From assembly GCF_002584535.1 (NCBI RefSeq), contig NZ_NUOT01000021.1:1-64000 (forward strand): a stretch of DNA of 64,000 nt. Reading direction: 5' to 3'. Origin of the DNA: Bacillus cereus (lineage in GTDB: Bacteria; Bacillota; Bacilli; Bacillales; Bacillaceae_G). Below are positions 631 to 27,786 of this stretch, piece by piece. The position numbers and the translations under genes are program-made. Numbering within the stretch: the stretch's first letter is position 1; each line of letters opens with the position of its first letter. The notes beneath the pieces are model-generated. The model was not told the DNA's origin. It searched no databases and saw only the letters and a program-made list of their open reading frames with translations.

Positions 631-3600
631 ATGGAGAGGTTAACAAAATTCTCATTAAAAAACCGAGCCGCTATCATCATCATGGTTTTACTCATTTCTG
701 TACTCGGTGTTTATTCTGGTTCGAAATTACCAATGGAATTTCTACCTAGTGTCGACAACCCCGCAATAACTGTCACTACAATGTCGCAAGGATTAGATGC
801 TGAAACATTGACAAAAGAAGTAACTGAACCGCTCGAGAAAAAGTTTCGAAATTTGGACCACGTCGATACAATCACTTCTTCTACTTATGAAGGTTTATCT
901 CGTATCGATATCACGTATACATCTAAAGCTAATATGAAAGATGCCACGCTCGAGGTCGAGAAAATTACCAACAATGTAAATTTCCCAAAGGAGATTACAA
1001 AACCCGTCGTCAGCCAACTTAATACCTCTATGATTCCACTTGCACAAATTACCGTTCAAAAACAGAATGGTTTTACAAAAGCAGACGAAAAACAGATTGA
1101 AGAAGAGATCATCCCGCAACTTGAAAATATCGACGGCGTCGCTAACGTCATGTATTACGGTAAATCAACATCCGAGTTATCTATCATATTAGATCCAAAT
1201 GAAATGAAAAATAAAAACGTAACACCACAGCAGGTATTAGCCGCTTTACAAGGAAAAGAAGCTTCCACTCCAGTTGGTCAAGTTACTGTCAATAACGAAG
1301 ACCACAGCCTCCGCGTCATTGGAAATGTCAAAAATGTAGATGAAATAAAAAACATGTCACTTACACCTCAAATCAAATTACAAGATATAGCTCAAGTAGA
1401 AATAAAACAACATTTTGATACCGTTACACATGTAAATGGCGATGAAGGAACTGGATTAGTTATAATGAAAGAACCTAGCAAAAATGCAGTTGCAATCGGA
1501 AAAGAAATCGATAAAAAAATAAAAACTATAAACAAAGAATATAACGATACTTATAAAATTAAATTAATATCCTCTACTCACGAACAAGTTGAAAATGCAG
1601 TTGTGAGTATGGGGAAAGAAGTCATTTTAGGAGCCATTGCTGCGACATTTATTATTTTAATCTTTTTACGCAGCGTTCGAACAACCCTTATCGCTGTCGT
1701 TAGTATTCCGTTATCTATTTTACTAACACTATTTTTACTTGATCAATCTCATGTTACATTAAACATTTTAACTCTCGGGGGCTTAGCGGTAGCGGTTGGT
1801 CGACTTGTTGACGATAGTATTGTTGTCATTGAAAATATCTTTCGGCGCTTACAAAAGGAACATTTTTCAAAAGACATCATTTTAGACGCCACAAAAGAGG
1901 TAGCCGTCGCAATTACCTCCTCTACTTTAACAACAGTCGCTGTCTTCTTACCTATCGGTCTTGTGTCAGGTACAATCGGTAAGCTAATGTTACCTATGGT
2001 ATTAGCCGTTGTATACTCTATACTTTCTTCACTAGTGGTGGCCTTAACCGTTGTTCCACTTATGGCATTTTTATTGCTGAAGAAAACAAGGCAGCGTACA
2101 CCGAAGCCTTCAAGAAAGTATACAGCTACGTTAAAATGGGCACTTTCGCATAAGTTTATTATTTTATTCTCTTCTTTCCTATTATTTGCGGGATCAATTG
2201 CTGCCTATGTATTACTACCAAAAGCAAATATAAAATCAGAAGATGACACGATGCTTTCAATTCAGATGACATTCCCAGCAAGTTACGAATTTGAATCTAG
2301 AAAGCAAACAGCCTTTGATTTTGAAAAAAAATTACTTTCTAACAGCAATGTAAAAGATGTTATTTTACGAATGGGTTCCAGTGCTGAAGATGCACAGTTT
2401 GGATTTTCAACTAAAAATAACCTTGCATCTATTGCTGTAGTCTTCAAAAAAGGAACAGATATCGATCAATATATCAAAGAACTAAAAAAAGGGCAGGCAG
2501 ACTTTAAACCAGCCGAATTCGATTATACAAAGGCAAGCTATTCTGGTTCTGGCGGTGGAAACAGCTTGCAATTTAACGTGACAGCAAACAATGAAACAAA
2601 TTTAAAAAAAGCTGCTGATGTCGTTGAAACAAAACTTAAAAGTATAGACAGCCTTTCTAAAATAAAAACAAATCTAGAAGAGTCAAAGAAAGAATGGCAA
2701 ATCGATATTGATCAAAAGAAAGCTGAACAAGTTGGATTAACACCAGAAACAGCCGGACAACAAGTTGCATTCCTTATGAAAAAATCACCAATTGGGCAAC
2801 TGACAATTAATGAAGAGAAAACGACCATTATGCTCGAACATAAACAAAAAAAGATAAGTAACAAGGAAGATATTCTTAACACAAATATTATGTCACCTAT
2901 AGCAGGACCAATTCCTTTAAAAGATATTGCAACCATTTCAGAAAAACGATTGCAAACTGAGATTTTCCATAAAGACGGGAAAGAAACCATTCAAATAACT
3001 GCCGAAGCAACAAATGAAGATTTAAGCAAAGTGAATACTGAAGTGAACAAAGCTATTTCAGAATTAGACCTACCAAACGGTGCGAAAGTTAAAATTGCTG
3101 GTGCAACCGAAGCAATGCAAGAGGACTTTACAAATTTATTCAAAATCATGGGGATCGCAATCGGCATTGTTTATTTAATTATGGTCATTACTTTTGGGCA
3201 AGCACGCGCTCCATTTGCGATTTTATTCTCTTTACCACTAGCTGCTGTTGGCGGTATTTTAGGATTAATCATTTCAAGAACACCAGTCGATTTAAACGCA
3301 CTAATCGGTGCATTAATGTTAATTGGGATTGTAGTTACAAATGCCATCGTACTAATAGAACGCGTTCAACAAAATAAAGAACAAGGTATGACAACGCGGG
3401 AAGCTTTACTAGAAGCAGGCTCTACAAGGCTACGACCAATTATTATGACAGCCATTACAACAATAGTAGCGATGTTACCATTATTATTCAGCCAATCACA
3501 AGCCGGCAGTATGGTATCAAAAAGTTTAGCGGTTGTTGTAATCGGTGGTTTAGCAGTTTCAACTGTACTCACACTAGTCGTCGTCCCTGTTATGTATGAA

Positions 3601-24801: not shown

Positions 24802-25239
24802 ATGGTTACAATTAGATGTATTGATGCCTCTGAAACATACGAACTACGTCAAAAAATTTTACGTCCAACTCAACAGTTGGAAGATTGTAAATACCCATCT
24901 GATTACGAAACAAATTCCTTTCATCTCGGTGCTTTCTTACATGCTGAACTCATTAGCATCGCATCTTTCTCAGCTGAATCAGAACCTTCCTTACAAGGTA
25001 ATAATCACTATCGTTTGCTAGGCATGGCTACAATGCCTAGCTTTCGAAAACAACATGCTGGTAGCTCATTAATCCAGCAAGCTGAAGTAATGTTAAAAGA
25101 GCGTGAAGCAGAGCTATTGTGGTGTAATGCTCGTATTACCGTTACAGATTACTATAAACGTTTAGGATTTCTTGAGCATGGCGAAATATTTGATATTCAT
25201 CCAATTGGACTTCATAAATTAATGTATAAAACATTATAA
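24802..25239 (+). CDS. GNAT-family N-acetyltransferase
   Basis: A 145-residue acetyl-CoA-dependent acyltransferase. The acetyl-CoA pyrophosphate loop is the segment RKQHAGSSLIQQAE (about residues 80-93), preceded by the LLGMATMPSFR strand. ATG 24802 follows AAGAAAGGTGG. The substrate is unknown. It sits at the end of a short unit and shares a terminator with the convergent radical SAM gene. Confidence 0.82.
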   Translation: MVTIRCIDASETYELRQKILRPTQQLEDCKYPSDYETNSFHLGAFLHAELISIASFSAESEPSLQGNNHYRLLGMATMPSFRKQHAGSSLIQQAEVMLKEREAELLWCNARITVTDYYKRLGFLEHGEIFDIHPIGLHKLMYKTL

Positions 25240-25270
25240 AATAAAGAGGTCATCCTCTTTATTTTATAAT
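25233..25270. terminator. bidirectional terminator between GNAT and radical SAM genes
   Basis: A perfect 17-bp stem (25233-25249 with 25254-25270) and a TCAT loop. It overlaps the ends of both convergent genes and has T runs on both strands. Confidence 0.9.
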
Positions 25271-26665
25271 TCCCCCCTCTCCTTGTAGCTCTTTTAAATA
25301 CTCTTCTTTCTCATCACGGTAAAATAAATTATACGTATCAAACGGAATAATTCTTCCATCAGGATGTACAATATGAACACAGGATTTCTTTACCGAACGT
25401 ATATCTAAATCATAATTATCCATAAACTTCATAATTAATACGCGGAATACATTCTCATAACCAATCCCTGTTGGAAGACTAACTTTTGGCAAGCAACAGA
25501 GCAATTCTTTTAATGAATCATAGCCACTTTCTGGTGAATGATTTAAGCTAAATAACTTAAAGATTTGTCCTTTTAATTGCTCATCACTTTCAAAAACAAT
25601 CGTATTCCGCTCTCCTTCTAATAAAATATTTCGATCAATTATACTGGTTAGTGGAAAAATAGATCCATCTAATTTTAATGCGTATGCCATCGCCAAACTA
25701 TCCGGATGACAAGGAACCGGTATTATATCGTCTTCTGTAAATAACGAAGATTGTTCGATAATCATTTGACGTACTTCACTTAATGTTAAACGATTGGTTT
25801 CAGGATTAAAATCTTCTGTTCGTCCCGCTTGCTGAATAGGTTGAAATGTAACACCCCGTACACATTTTTGTTGTATTGCATATTGTAATATCTCACCTAT
25901 TTCCTTATCATTTACTCCTTTTTTCAATGTAACAACAAGGGTTGTAGAAATATTGTATTTATTTAAGTTCTCAATCGCTCTTCTTCTTATTTCACGTAAA
26001 TCAACCCCGCGTAAACTCTGCAGTGCTTCTTTTTCCAAGCTATCAAACTGTAAATATATTTCAAATCCAGGTGTATATTTTACTAACTTTTCTACAAACG
26101 TAATATCCTGTGCAATGCGTAAACCGTTCGTATTAATCATAATATGTTTAATTGGTTTTTGTTTTGCAATATTTAATATATCAAAGAAATGAGGATGAAG
26201 CGTTGGCTCACCACCGCTAATTTGAACAACATCTGGATTCTTTTCGTTTTTTACAACGGCATCTAACATCCTCTCCACATGTTCTACTGTTCGCCATGTA
26301 GTGCGCTTTGGTGATGATTCTGCATAACAAATCGGACACTGTAAATTGCATACATCTGTAATTTCAATAATACTTAAGCAACTGTGTTGCTCATGATCCA
26401 GACAAAGTCCACAATCATAAGGGCACCCGTATTTAATAGGTGTATTCCAACGATATGGCATTTCACTCGGCTTAATAAATTCGCGGCATTGCTTATAATA
26501 CGAGACATCTGTTGAAATGAGCACCTTTTCTCGGCCATGCAACATACAATGCTTTACCATATAGACTCTTTCATCTTGTATAATGATCTTCGCTTCTACT
26601 TTCTGTAAACATGTGGAGCACACACTACTCGTTAGGTCATAATATAAATAGTCCCTATTTGGCAT
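25259..26665 (-). CDS. radical SAM protein of the tetraether-lipid-synthase (Tes/MJ0619)-like family
   Basis: A 468-residue radical SAM enzyme. The SAM cluster motif CNLQCPIC gives Cys106, Cys110 and Cys113, and GGEP lies at 151-154. Upstream are two further metal sites: a knuckle CSTC (16, 19) with HCMLHG (Cys40, His43), and CPYDCGLC (81, 85, 88) with HSC (Cys96). The C-terminal FMDNYDLD and HPDGRIIPFDTYN segments also match archaeal Tes-type proteins, which couple lipid tails by C-C bond formation. The usual PFC cysteine is Asp here. ATG 26665 follows AAAAGGGG and overlaps the Lgt-like gene stop by 11 bp, so the pair is co-translated. A role in lipid or lipoprotein modification is inferred, not shown. 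Confidence 0.8.
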   Translation of the reverse strand: MPNRDYLYYDLTSSVCSTCLQKVEAKIIIQDERVYMVKHCMLHGREKVLISTDVSYYKQCREFIKPSEMPYRWNTPIKYGCPYDCGLCLDHEQHSCLSIIEITDVCNLQCPICYAESSPKRTTWRTVEHVERMLDAVVKNEKNPDVVQISGGEPTLHPHFFDILNIAKQKPIKHIMINTNGLRIAQDITFVEKLVKYTPGFEIYLQFDSLEKEALQSLRGVDLREIRRRAIENLNKYNISTTLVVTLKKGVNDKEIGEILQYAIQQKCVRGVTFQPIQQAGRTEDFNPETNRLTLSEVRQMIIEQSSLFTEDDIIPVPCHPDSLAMAYALKLDGSIFPLTSIIDRNILLEGERNTIVFESDEQLKGQIFKLFSLNHSPESGYDSLKELLCCLPKVSLPTGIGYENVFRVLIMKFMDNYDLDIRSVKKSCVHIVHPDGRIIPFDTYNLFYRDEKEEYLKELQGEGGIIK

Positions 26666-27410
26666 GTCGTCTTTCCCCTTTTCTCTTTTTCATAACTAAC
26701 ACAACATAATAACAAACACCCAAAATACAAGCCCATTGAATCGCACTCAAATGCACATATAACTTATCTGTCGGCCTGAGCCATTCAACCAAAAAGCGAA
26801 AGTTTAAATATGCCAACATAAAGATTTGAAAAACGAACCCTTCCCACGGTTTATGTCTACTTAGCCAAATACAGCAAATCATAAGGATAAATAAATAACC
26901 AATCTCATATAATTGTGTCGGATGCCGGAGCATCCCATCACCAAAATCAATTCCAACTGACCATGTTGTTTGTATCCCTACCGTTTCATCTCCAATGCCA
27001 GTTAAAAAACAACCAATTCTACCAATTGCAATTCCTAGTACCAGAGGAATGACCATATCATCACCCGTTGATTCTGTATGACCAACCATTTTCTTCACAC
27101 TTTCTACACCAATAAGTCCACCTAACAAACCGCCTACAATTGTTTTCCCTTGAATCAATCCTTGCCAGCCATTCTCCCCTATTACTTTCTGAACCTGCAG
27201 AAGATGCTCCAGTGTTGCCAAAAGAATCGCCCCAAGAAAAGCACCAAATATAGCACCTAAAAAGATGAATAGCGCTTTTACTTCTGGAATCTTCTCTTTT
27301 CGTCGACTTTTTAAATAATAACGAAACCCAAGAAACATACCGAGTGATTCAAAAATAGCATGAGGATGTAGCTTTACTCCAAATACATGTAAATAAATTG
27401 GAAATTCCAT
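26655..27410 (-). CDS. Lgt-like membrane protein (divergent prolipoprotein diacylglyceryl transferase family)
   Basis: A 251-residue polytopic membrane protein with about seven helices. Lgt family marks are VGGLLGGLIG (92-101), GRIGCF (130-135), RHPTQLYE (162-169) and FRFLVEWLR (204-212). In standard Lgt these read HGGLIG, GRxGNFxNGE and RHPSQLYE. Here the histidine is Val92, the key asparagine is Cys134 and the NGE motif is lost, while Arg131 and Arg162 remain. It may therefore use phosphatidylglycerol but not carry out normal lipoprotein maturation. ATG 27410 follows AGAAAGG. It forms a two-gene operon with the Tes-like radical SAM gene. A separate canonical lgt is expected elsewhere in the genome. 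Confidence 0.78.
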   Translation of the reverse strand: MEFPIYLHVFGVKLHPHAIFESLGMFLGFRYYLKSRRKEKIPEVKALFIFLGAIFGAFLGAILLATLEHLLQVQKVIGENGWQGLIQGKTIVGGLLGGLIGVESVKKMVGHTESTGDDMVIPLVLGIAIGRIGCFLTGIGDETVGIQTTWSVGIDFGDGMLRHPTQLYEIGYLFILMICCIWLSRHKPWEGFVFQIFMLAYLNFRFLVEWLRPTDKLYVHLSAIQWACILGVCYYVVLVMKKRKGERRHAK

Positions 27411-27510: not shown

Positions 27511-27786
27511 ATGAGTAATACAAACTCATCAAAAAAACCTCGTCCTTTTCAACAATGGATGATTGGCTTTGCAGTTACATTTCTAGCTCTCATCATATTA
27601 TTTGGAGTTCTTATTCGCTGGATTGAGATTACATTTATTATTGTAGGAGTCTCTTTATTATCTTGGGGAGGATACGAAGCATATCGAGGGCGACCATTTA
27701 TTTTACTAGGAATTATTAGTACACCCTTTATTTTAGGATTCGTATTCTTTATTATTTGCGGTGGATTCTTGATATTTTCTCTTTAA
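27511..27786 (+). CDS. small membrane protein of unknown function
   Basis: A 91-residue protein with three hydrophobic segments (about residues 18-36, 39-53 and 65-90) and a hydrophilic, lysine-rich N-terminus. ATG 27511 sits behind a strong AGGAGG with 6 nt spacing. It is divergent from the Lgt-like gene across 100 bp, so the two could share control. Terminator follows. No family recognised. Confidence 0.7.
   Translation: MSNTNSSKKPRPFQQWMIGFAVTFLALIILFGVLIRWIEITFIIVGVSLLSWGGYEAYRGRPFILLGIISTPFILGFVFFIICGGFLIFSL

Follow-up and report, generated by a model that had tools for sequence, protein, structure and literature searches.

An Lgt-like protein, a radical SAM enzyme and a tiny cysteine-bearing membrane protein suggest an undescribed modification of membrane lipids or peptides

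Tetraether synthase (Tes, also GDGT-MAS; MJ0619), the archaeal tetraether lipid synthase, carries rubredoxin-type ligands (C-x2-C-x20-C-x2-H), N-terminal [Fe4S4] ligands (three Cys and a His), the radical SAM motif CX3CX2C and a C-terminal set of Cys columns together with Met439 and Tyr459, and it has bacterial kin termed Mss. In the lipoprotein enzyme Lgt of E. coli, H103 of the HGGL motif is essential and is the proposed binder of the lipobox peptide (PMC4728403), while an R246K variant has been reported inactive. A further point of comparison is provided by the MYXO-CTERM/myxosortase system, in which C-terminal tails bear an invariant Cys and one helix and for which the accessible text of PMC11980579 proposes an Lgt-like lipidating enzyme. 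Here, we describe a locus in a 64,000-nucleotide stretch of Bacillus cereus DNA (hereafter, the window) in which relatives of Tes and Lgt are encoded side by side and which, together with a tiny Cys-bearing membrane protein, suggests an undescribed modification of membrane lipids or peptides. No description of the pair as a system was found in the literature searched; the accessible part of PMC12010503 mentions in passing two such genes, which may or may not belong to the Lgt-linked clade, as jointly lost from the single-cell genome of a Pseudarthrobacter.

A conserved gene pair

The original prediction that the two genes, overlapping by 11 bp and closed off by a strong terminator, form one unit is borne out by the window's ORF list, which contains both genes with this overlap (Table 1), and by the terminator, a 17-bp stem followed by a U-rich tail that folds at -18.6 kcal/mol (z -6.1), a stability equalled by none of 200 shuffled sequences. 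The locus of Persicobacter likewise has an overlap of 11 bp. Neighbouring genes in the window, which we take from their resemblance to encode an oxidase, an antiporter, an acetyltransferase and a permease, have no clear link to the pair.

Table 1. Positions of the features discussed, in window coordinates
Feature	Position	Strand	Remark
Intrinsic terminator, end of radical SAM gene	25233..25270	-	between radical SAM gene and convergent gene ending at 25239
Radical SAM protein, Lgt-linked clade of the Tes/TrsS superfamily	25259..26665	-	468 aa
C429	25379..25381	-	27/27 Lgt-linked rows; Val/Ile/Leu in Tes/Mss-like rows
C390-C391 pair	25493..25498	-	27/27 Lgt-linked rows, 0/15 Tes/Mss-like rows
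C319	25709..25711	-	82/82 wider alignment, 26/27 Lgt-linked rows; Cys also in 14/15 Tes/Mss-like rows
C106-x3-C110-x2-C113, radical SAM cluster motif	26327..26350	-	
Overlap of radical SAM and Lgt-like genes	26655..26665	-	11 bp
Lgt-family paralogue, PG-site arginines kept, Y26/H103/N146 positions altered	26655..27410	-	251 aa
R205 (E. coli Lgt R239)	26796..26798	-	76/76
C134, place of E. coli Lgt N146	27009..27011	-	Cys 76/76
R131 (E. coli Lgt R143)	27018..27020	-	76/76
H17, place of E. coli Lgt Y26	27360..27362	-	His 75/76, one gap
Candidate third component, 91-aa membrane protein	27511..27786	+	divergent from pair
Codon of terminal-helix Cys (residue 83), candidate third component	27757..27759	+	

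The pair is a conserved unit and not a chance association. An Lgt-like ORF accompanies the radical SAM gene in 74 of 80 family loci (the best 80 of 192 relatives), so the pairing is clearly not peculiar to this strain, which was what would have told against the original prediction. Among 398 genomes of one Bacillota class (that of a Seinonella genome, taken as Bacilli) 26 carry both genes, and among 120 genomes of one Bacteroidota family (that of a Flavobacterium genome, taken as Flavobacteriaceae) 15 do, with neither gene found alone in either set at the thresholds used. At least five phyla contain the pair, and across 76 loci the two proteins show correlated pairwise identities (r 0.91); as the loci are related, Fisher and shuffle values overstate significance. 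Clustering of neighbouring ORFs in 83 loci and the window gave no third cluster in more than 17 of the 84, those being mainly Flavobacteriaceae.

Departures of both enzymes from their named families

Pfam recognizes just two domains in the radical SAM protein, PF04055 (1.6e-25) and PF23545, the latter an N-terminal zinc ribbon whose name derives from HMPTM, the former name of MJ0619. All of the motifs named in the original prediction are present, and the ligand sets and CX3CX2C motif among them are shared with Tes and Mss. In an alignment of 82 sequences (the 80 loci, that of Persicobacter and the window), the rubredoxin-type ligands correspond to C16/C19, where 81 sequences have Cys and the remaining one a gap, and C40/H43, which are invariant, as are the N-terminal auxiliary cluster ligands (C81/C85/C88/H91/H94) and the CX3CX2C cysteines; PDGRIIPF lies at the C-terminal end. 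PADLOC viperin models also match the protein, at 54 bits or less, which we take as general fold resemblance.

Judged by sequence, the protein nevertheless belongs to a separate clade, and the assignment first made to the Tes family stands for the superfamily that includes Tes but is not supported for Tes itself. It scores 284.9 bits against the NCBIfam Tes model NF045702, whose cut-off is 450, and five other Lgt-linked members score 256-304, whereas all five Acidobacteriota Tes/Mss-like controls exceed the cut-off (552-619 bits); the label 'Mss' for this group comes from the accessible text of PMC13274423 and from these Tes scores. The top-scoring curated family is TrsS (NF045646), at 329.3 bits against a cut-off of 490. 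In a quickly built tree, which has long branches elsewhere, 35 Lgt-linked rows make up one side of a branch with SH-aLRT 100, outside the Tes clade.

The C-terminal region tells the same clades apart. When 27 Lgt-linked rows were set against 15 Tes/Mss-like rows (L145 and L003 being left out), the full Tes feature set was absent from the Lgt-linked rows: the 323, 428 and 443 columns, Cys in all 15 Tes/Mss-like rows, hold A/S/C (Cys in 8), S/T and D/E, respectively, in the Lgt-linked rows, and the Tyr459 column holds Ile in 26, Met in one and Tyr in none. The Met439 column is Met in 17 of the 27; in the wider set, 74 of 82 sequences have it. C390-C391 and C429 set the Lgt-linked enzyme apart from Tes and Mss, as does its tie to an Lgt paralogue. 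C96 and C429 are common to it and five TrsS-like rows, which are so named by score alone, the three tested falling short of both the TrsS and the Tes cut-off. The distant relatives L002 and L003, unlike the Lgt-linked clade, adjoin a methyltransferase gene and not Lgt.

The partner was likewise correctly placed in the Lgt family, with 98 bits against PF01790 (gathering cut-off 24.9), and falls short of the equivalog TIGR00544 (51.1 bits, cut-off 118.9). Like canonical Lgt, it keeps the phosphatidylglycerol (PG)-site residues R143 and R239 (E. coli numbering), as well as the equivalents of Y235, E202 and P197 in 76 of 76 proteins and of H196 in 75, with E243 kept or Asp. Unlike canonical Lgt, it has His for Y26, Met/Val/Ala for H103 (74 of 76) and Cys for N146, whereas the best-scoring Lgt-family match in each of 10 of the genomes keeps Y26 in 10, H103 in nine and N146 in nine. 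R246 is Lys in 74 of 76, as in four of the 10 paralogues, and E151 is replaced and not conserved, while new invariant Lys and Glu residues are present. On these residues, the partner is not an ordinary Lgt, and with H103 lost and Y26, N146, E151 and R246 changed, ordinary lipobox transfer cannot be assumed.

These departures bear on the simplest explanation, that a bacterial Tes-like enzyme cross-links acyl tails while Lgt acts on ordinary lipoproteins. Both proteins do fall in the relevant superfamilies, but since the assignment to Tes is not supported, cross-linking by the Tes mechanism, though possible, is not implied, and we consider this explanation very unlikely. It is opposed by the missed Tes cut-off and separate clade, by the absence of Tyr459 and two of the Tes/Mss Cys columns from all 27 rows and of the third from 19, by the missing lipobox-related His, and by a second Lgt-family gene elsewhere in 21 of 22 genomes searched. 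In addition, none of 16 Acidobacteriota Tes/Mss-like loci (L142-L157) has an Lgt-like gene within about 1.5 kb.

Small cysteine-tailed proteins beside the pair

The original prediction had missed a third, fast-evolving type of gene, as well as the changed active-site residues of both enzymes. With this component found, the likely meaning shifts from a pair of lipid enzymes to a pair of enzymes with a candidate substrate. In 72 of 82 loci a Cys-tail ORF lies at most 500 bp downstream, four more have one elsewhere beside the pair, and K/R is richer before the helix than after the Cys in 79 of 90 small proteins, both counts pre-selecting a hydrophobic stretch before a Cys. The last transmembrane helix is preceded by a basic stretch and followed by the conserved Cys and a short tail of 1-16 residues; charged residues make up three of 1260 positions in the hydrophobic stretch, in part by construction, through the selection on hydrophobicity. 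The Cys often lies inside the helix, with a hydrophobic tail. Fairer tests are given by small ORFs picked by position and hydrophobicity alone, a pick for which only 59 of 81 loci offered a candidate, where 58 of 59 have a Cys in the last 20 residues, and by the comparison of small proteins beside the pair with those elsewhere, where a late Cys occurs in 89 of 91 versus 65 of 132. Among the position-picked ORFs the Cys column is the most conserved of all (57 of 58). None of the small proteins tested against Pfam and NCBIfam scored above cut-off. In the MYXO-CTERM tails the order is Cys, helix, basic end, unlike the arrangement here, which is not that of a MYXO-CTERM-type sorting tail, and a radical SAM enzyme is present here, unlike there.

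Across 72 loci the small gene is present once in 57, twice in 12 and three times in three, the second ORFs of L021, L023 and L056 being doubtful by eye, and one genome (G469) has four matches, one of them weak. In nine Flavobacteriaceae loci dN/dS is 0.10. A radical SAM gene accompanied by small, variable and often multiplied genes, as seen here, is a feature of RiPP-like systems of precursor and maturase, and the radical SAM enzyme might alter the backbone or side chains of the small protein, with His17 and Cys134 making the Lgt-like protein a membrane cysteine enzyme (a transacylase or sorting peptidase) that would finish or release a C-terminal peptide. Such a role would suit the tandem precursor-like copies, the 1-16 residues after the Cys, the enzyme's own C-terminal set C390, C391 and C429, and the putative Cys-His couple that replaces Asn and Tyr of E. 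coli Lgt. We nonetheless regard it as improbable, given that the radical SAM domain and zinc ribbon come with no peptide-recognition domain in Pfam and that the characterized kin, Tes, acts on lipids.

The small gene also tends to track the pair across genomes. Profile A7 matches 14 of the 15 pair-positive genomes of the Bacteroidota family, and in the 105 pair-negative ones it gives a single strong match (G422, 6e-16), one of 2e-6 (G491) and four of 3.5e-4 to 0.0098, while profile A5 matches 21 of 27 pair-positive genomes, 19 of them its own source genomes (otherwise two of eight), and in the 20 of 372 pair-negative genomes tried gives no strong match and one at E 0.0095; both profiles were built from pair-bearing loci, and the sources of A7 may overlap the 120 genomes. 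The orphan gene of G422 has lost its Cys, and G491 holds decayed fragments of the radical SAM and small genes side by side. In a genus set (28 of 131 genomes tried), the radical SAM gene is found in eight of eight small-protein-positive genomes and one of 20 profile-negative ones (G690, where it stands with no A7 match). In G532 the radical SAM gene likewise comes with no A7 match, but another Cys-tail ORF is present. In Acidobacteriota a small Cys-tail gene was seen within about 1.5 kb in only two of 10 loci, and none was seen in L009, L015, L047 and L048.

Loci of this kind, with the pair but no detected small gene, are in keeping with a second alternative, namely that the two enzymes produce an altered free lipid of the membrane (for example a tail-coupled, cyclised or otherwise changed phosphatidylglycerol, or a glyceryl ether) and that the small proteins are accessory subunits holding the enzymes or presenting the lipid. 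We consider this possible, if on balance unlikely. Among proteins of solved structure, GDGT-MAS is nearest to the radical SAM enzyme (E 1.1e-67), and this lipid enzyme binds bacterial phospholipids according to the accessible text of PMC9433317, and the Lgt-like enzyme keeps its PG-site residues without the proposed peptide-binding His. Accessory subunits would not be expected, however, to occur as several diverged tandem copies, to have a single Cys as their most conserved column or, as in the one orphan case, to lose the Cys motif alone.

In the window, the third component is probably the 91-aa product of the divergent ORF 27511..27786, which has AGGAGG seven bases before its start and a last helix ending FFIIC-GGFLIFSL. 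Of 531 window ORFs it gave the best match to the small protein of L085, which had been chosen as the best of 19 small proteins tried; its match to DUF996 is weak (21.1 bits against a cut-off of 31.3). Three small-protein profiles missed it, hhalign places it in another register, and its relatives amount to three weak matches in the 398 genomes, none of them in the 26 that are pair-positive.

A tentative mechanism and its implications

The reading we favour, which we hold tentatively as somewhat short of probable, is that the Cys of the small protein receives a diacylglyceryl-type group from the Lgt-like enzyme and that the radical SAM enzyme alters this lipid. The small membrane protein would thus be the substrate. 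Its last helix is built like a lipoprotein signal peptide, with a basic start, hydrophobic core, small residues and a Cys, and such a helix, under the positive-inside rule, would place the Cys at the outer leaflet, the side of Lgt's active site. There the Lgt-like enzyme, having retained PG-binding and PG-activating residues, would transfer a diacylglyceryl-type lipid to the Cys. The radical SAM enzyme, presumably cytoplasmic and with a C-terminal Cys set that differs from that of Tes, would act on the acyl tail of the phospholipid ahead of its transfer or else, at the membrane mid-plane, on that of the lipidated peptide. A small lipopeptide or specially anchored membrane peptide would result. 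The least certain steps are the Cys as acceptor and the nature of the radical step.

Several observations weigh against this reading: a Cys on the outside is hard to reach for a cytosolic radical SAM enzyme, the proposed lipobox-binding His is lost, the Cys often lies inside the helix, and the small gene goes undetected in some loci and is divergent in the window. A bolder form of the lipidation reading, which we rate as rather unlikely, envisages a new kind of anchor found in several phyla, where diacylglycerol placed by the Lgt-like enzyme on an outer-face Cys would be joined by the radical SAM enzyme, through the end of a lipid tail, to another lipid or to the peptide at the mid-plane, giving a membrane-spanning or cyclised lipopeptide.

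If the small proteins are indeed substrates, the system would represent a dedicated branch of protein lipidation and connect it with radical chemistry at the acyl tails, and a separate role would fall to one clade of bacterial Tes relatives. Tes homologues have been called with a cut-off of E below 1e-50 and identity over 20% (PMC8941075), and a loose cut-off of this type may count the Lgt-linked clade as Tes. The clade should be kept apart, which matters wherever membrane-spanning lipids are inferred from Tes homologues in bacterial genomes.

The conserved gene pair

The radical SAM gene and the Lgt-like gene form a conserved unit. In the window both open reading frames (ORFs) lie where the original prediction had placed them, overlapping by 11 bp, and a genuine terminator follows them. 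Relatives of the radical SAM protein turned up in 192 stretches when the genome collection was scanned; judged by record titles, the best 80 represent Bacillota, Bacteroidota, Planctomycetota, Cyanobacteriota with Melainabacteria, Acidobacteriota and Spirochaetota. Of these best 80 loci, 74 have an Lgt-like ORF inside the fetched stretch and six do not (L008, L015, L016, L047, L051 and L080); in L051 the radical SAM gene starts 73 bases into the contig, and the L047 genome has a second PF01790 match located elsewhere. As L080 is the sole Spirochaetota locus among the best 80, the pair is known from at least five phyla. The gap between the genes is no more than 150 bases in 66 of the 74 loci by a scripted measure, which assumed a fixed start and so overlooked L009 and L043, adjoining too by coordinates. 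The 11 bp overlap recurs in L001 (Bacteroidota).

Co-occurrence across whole genomes is the clearest test of linkage. Radical SAM (E ≤1e-90) and Lgt-like (E ≤1e-40) profiles matched the same 26 of 398 genomes in the class of G001, a Seinonella, which we take to be Bacilli; both likewise matched the same 15 of 120 genomes in the family to which G009, a Flavobacterium, belongs. At the 26 loci (L091 duplicates L004) the two genes overlap or are separated by at most about 170 bases, and pairwise identities of the two proteins are correlated (r 0.91, 76 loci).

In two Persicobacter loci, L001 and, in similar order, L078, the pair is close to a very long gene, presumably polyketide or polyunsaturated-fatty-acid synthase-like.

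A description of the pair as a system was not found in the literature, which is weak evidence, with subscription papers and preprints mostly outside coverage; in PMC7641849 and PMC3877243 the Lgt name and 'radical SAM' both occur, but apart. According to PMC12010503, radical SAM and prolipoprotein diacylglyceryl transferase genes are jointly missing from one of four near-identical Pseudarthrobacter single-cell genomes, a pattern that would fit their gain or loss in one piece; the mention of these genes, which may belong to the Lgt-linked family, is incidental and concerns a further phylum.

Two divergent enzymes

The radical SAM protein carries Pfam Radical_SAM and a zinc ribbon that owes its name to HMPTM, the tetraether synthase MJ0619; its nearest solved structure is tetraether synthase 7tol (E 1.1e-67). 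The window protein and five relatives fall below the curated cut-offs of both the tetraether lipid synthase (Tes) and TrsS families. Among 149 Acidobacteriota genomes, relatives occupy three score levels: Lgt-linked (777–838 bits in nine genomes, plus one partial match at 528), intermediate, and Tes/Mss-like, Mss being the bacterial kin of Tes treated in PMC13274423. All five Tes/Mss-like proteins tested pass the Tes cut-off; the three intermediate proteins tested fall below both Tes and TrsS cut-offs. Thirty of these loci were retrieved together with flanks of about 1.5 kb, or less at contig ends, and within these flanks an Lgt-like gene stands beside nine of the ten Lgt-linked loci (L128 is the exception) and none of the other 20. 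Two of the genomes, G634 and G661, carry both an Lgt-linked gene and a second, intermediate-score member, so the types coexist.

A quick maximum-likelihood tree, its rows grouped by score or origin independently of Lgt presence, sets the 35 Lgt-linked rows apart (SH-aLRT 100); its outer order is unsure, owing to several long branches outside that clade. In a C-terminal domain alignment omitting L145 and L003, Cys occupies positions 390, 391 and 429 in all 27 Lgt-linked rows and position 319 in 26, the last also in 14 of 15 Tes/Mss rows. Two Tes/Mss Cys columns are absent from all 27 and a third from 19, and the Tes Tyr459 column holds Ile (26) or Met (1). PMC9433317 describes a carbon–sulphur intermediate and, close to the substrate, a C-terminal cluster; the changed cysteines may be cluster ligands, and the chemistry may differ. 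More distant relatives in Mycolicibacterium (L002) and on a haloarchaeal plasmid (L003) are followed by a methyltransferase gene, with redox genes close by and no Lgt-like gene there, probably another, separate module.

The Lgt-like protein matches Pfam LGT, and its nearest solved structure is E. coli Lgt 5azb (E 7.9e-6); two or more Lgt-family genes are present in 21 of 22 genomes searched, and a single one in G004. We compared 76 Lgt-like sequences with E. coli Lgt (numbering used here) and the top-scoring Lgt-family match from each of ten genomes. R143, P197, E202, Y235 and R239 are kept in all 76 and H196 in 75, and position 243 is Glu (64) or Asp (12). His stands in place of Y26 in 75 (one gap), Met, Val or Ala in place of H103 in 74, Cys in place of N146 in all 76 and Lys in place of R246 in 74; position E151 is unconserved. 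In PMC4728403, mutants of H103, Y26, R143, R239, R246 and E151 are inactive and the HGGL motif is suggested to bind the lipobox peptide. Several donor-side residues are thus retained while others are altered. A rival account to be weighed here is a RiPP-like pathway in which the Lgt-like protein would be a cysteine enzyme.

A small membrane protein with a terminal cysteine

In most loci a short gene lies directly 3' of the radical SAM gene, encoding about 60–150 residues, or some 240 in L021, L024 and L027. The proteins seem to have two or three helices or, in a few cases, a zinc-finger-like N-terminal part, below the Pfam cut-off, and a single helix. Basic residues precede the last helix (at least one in 84 of 90 proteins), which ends in Cys followed by 1–16 residues, as in IGFSTC, IGLGICG and TFLLNAACFG; for a lipidated C-terminal Cys tail, the nearest concept is that of PMC11980579. 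His is C-terminal in 16 of 90 tail ORFs, often as Gly-x-Met/Leu/Ile-His or similar. In the G001 class (Bacillota), L106–L109 encode a Cys-tail protein with a B-box-like N-terminal zinc finger (three scanned, all below the Pfam cut-off). Its gene precedes the Lgt-like gene, and the tail might thus behave like a signal that can move.

Across 82 loci, a Cys-tail ORF lies within 500 bases downstream in 72 and elsewhere or overlapping in L043, L069, L076 and the window; L083 ends with its contig, L004 has a similar ORF under the hydropathy threshold, and none was found in L009, L015, L047 and L048. The G001 class has one at 24 of 26 loci, five of them upstream of the pair. When ORFs were picked by position, blind to Cys, 58 of 59 had it, as the most conserved column; a second Cys-blind test gave 89 of 91 beside the pair versus 65 of 132 elsewhere. 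Purifying selection acts on the small genes, with a dN/dS of 0.10 across nine loci.

Of the 15 genomes in the G009 family that carry the pair, 14 have a match to the small-protein profile A7 next to it, and the fifteenth, G532, has a different Cys-tail ORF there. Among 105 pair-negative genomes G422 matches strongly and four others weakly; the G422 orphan retains the helix and has lost the terminal Cys motif, in a genome without an enzyme-pair match. A decayed locus in G491 holds radical SAM fragments, then a small-gene fragment, with no Lgt-like match in the surrounding 6 kb. In the genus of G009, A7 matches 9 of 131 genomes, all nine with the radical SAM gene, which G690 has without an A7 match. 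Counting against a third-component role, only two of ten Acidobacteriota loci show the small gene within about 1.5 kb. A rival in which the peptides would be accessories is a free-lipid pathway. Tes homologues in bacteria are mentioned by PMC8941075 and PMC9433317 as proteins whose function is untested, and the former suggests branched tetraether lipids.

Of 19 small proteins tried, that of L085 scored highest against the window candidate, in an alignment that pairs the two Cys and covers most of the candidate; the L085 radical SAM protein is nearest to the window's by tree path, L101 and L094 being slightly closer by identity. The candidate's score of 66, best of 531 window ORFs (runner-up 52), was reached in 0 of 2000 full shuffles and in 13 and 26 of 2000 local shuffles. 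The best hhalign match takes another register, DUF996 matches weakly, the small-protein profiles do not match, and no relative was found in pair-positive genomes. The candidate is probably the third component of the window.

Coordinates of the features discussed
Locus	Position	Feature	Remarks
Window	27511-27786	likely third component	divergent gene; AGGAGG site; alignment with L085 small protein
L106	3884-4156	Cys-tail protein, B-box-like finger
L107	290-622	Cys-tail protein, B-box-like finger
L108	240-575	Cys-tail protein, B-box-like finger
L109	164-460	Cys-tail protein, B-box-like finger
L124 (G422)	704-943	orphan small protein
L125 (G491)	2598-3054	decayed locus
L001	8001-17010	pair close to a very long gene, presumably synthase-like
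L002	5977-8345	distant radical SAM relative with methyltransferase gene
L003	4893-7171	distant radical SAM relative with methyltransferase gene

A possible route

The linkage is conserved, as is the tail Cys, several donor-site residues are kept and the C-terminal cysteines differ. The original prediction had suggested a joint action of the two enzymes on lipids or lipoproteins. By positive-inside topology the tail Cys would lie outside, where Lgt works, and the small protein would be the acceptor. Direct action of the radical SAM enzyme on the Cys is unlikely because that enzyme is presumably cytosolic; its target may instead be the acyl tail.
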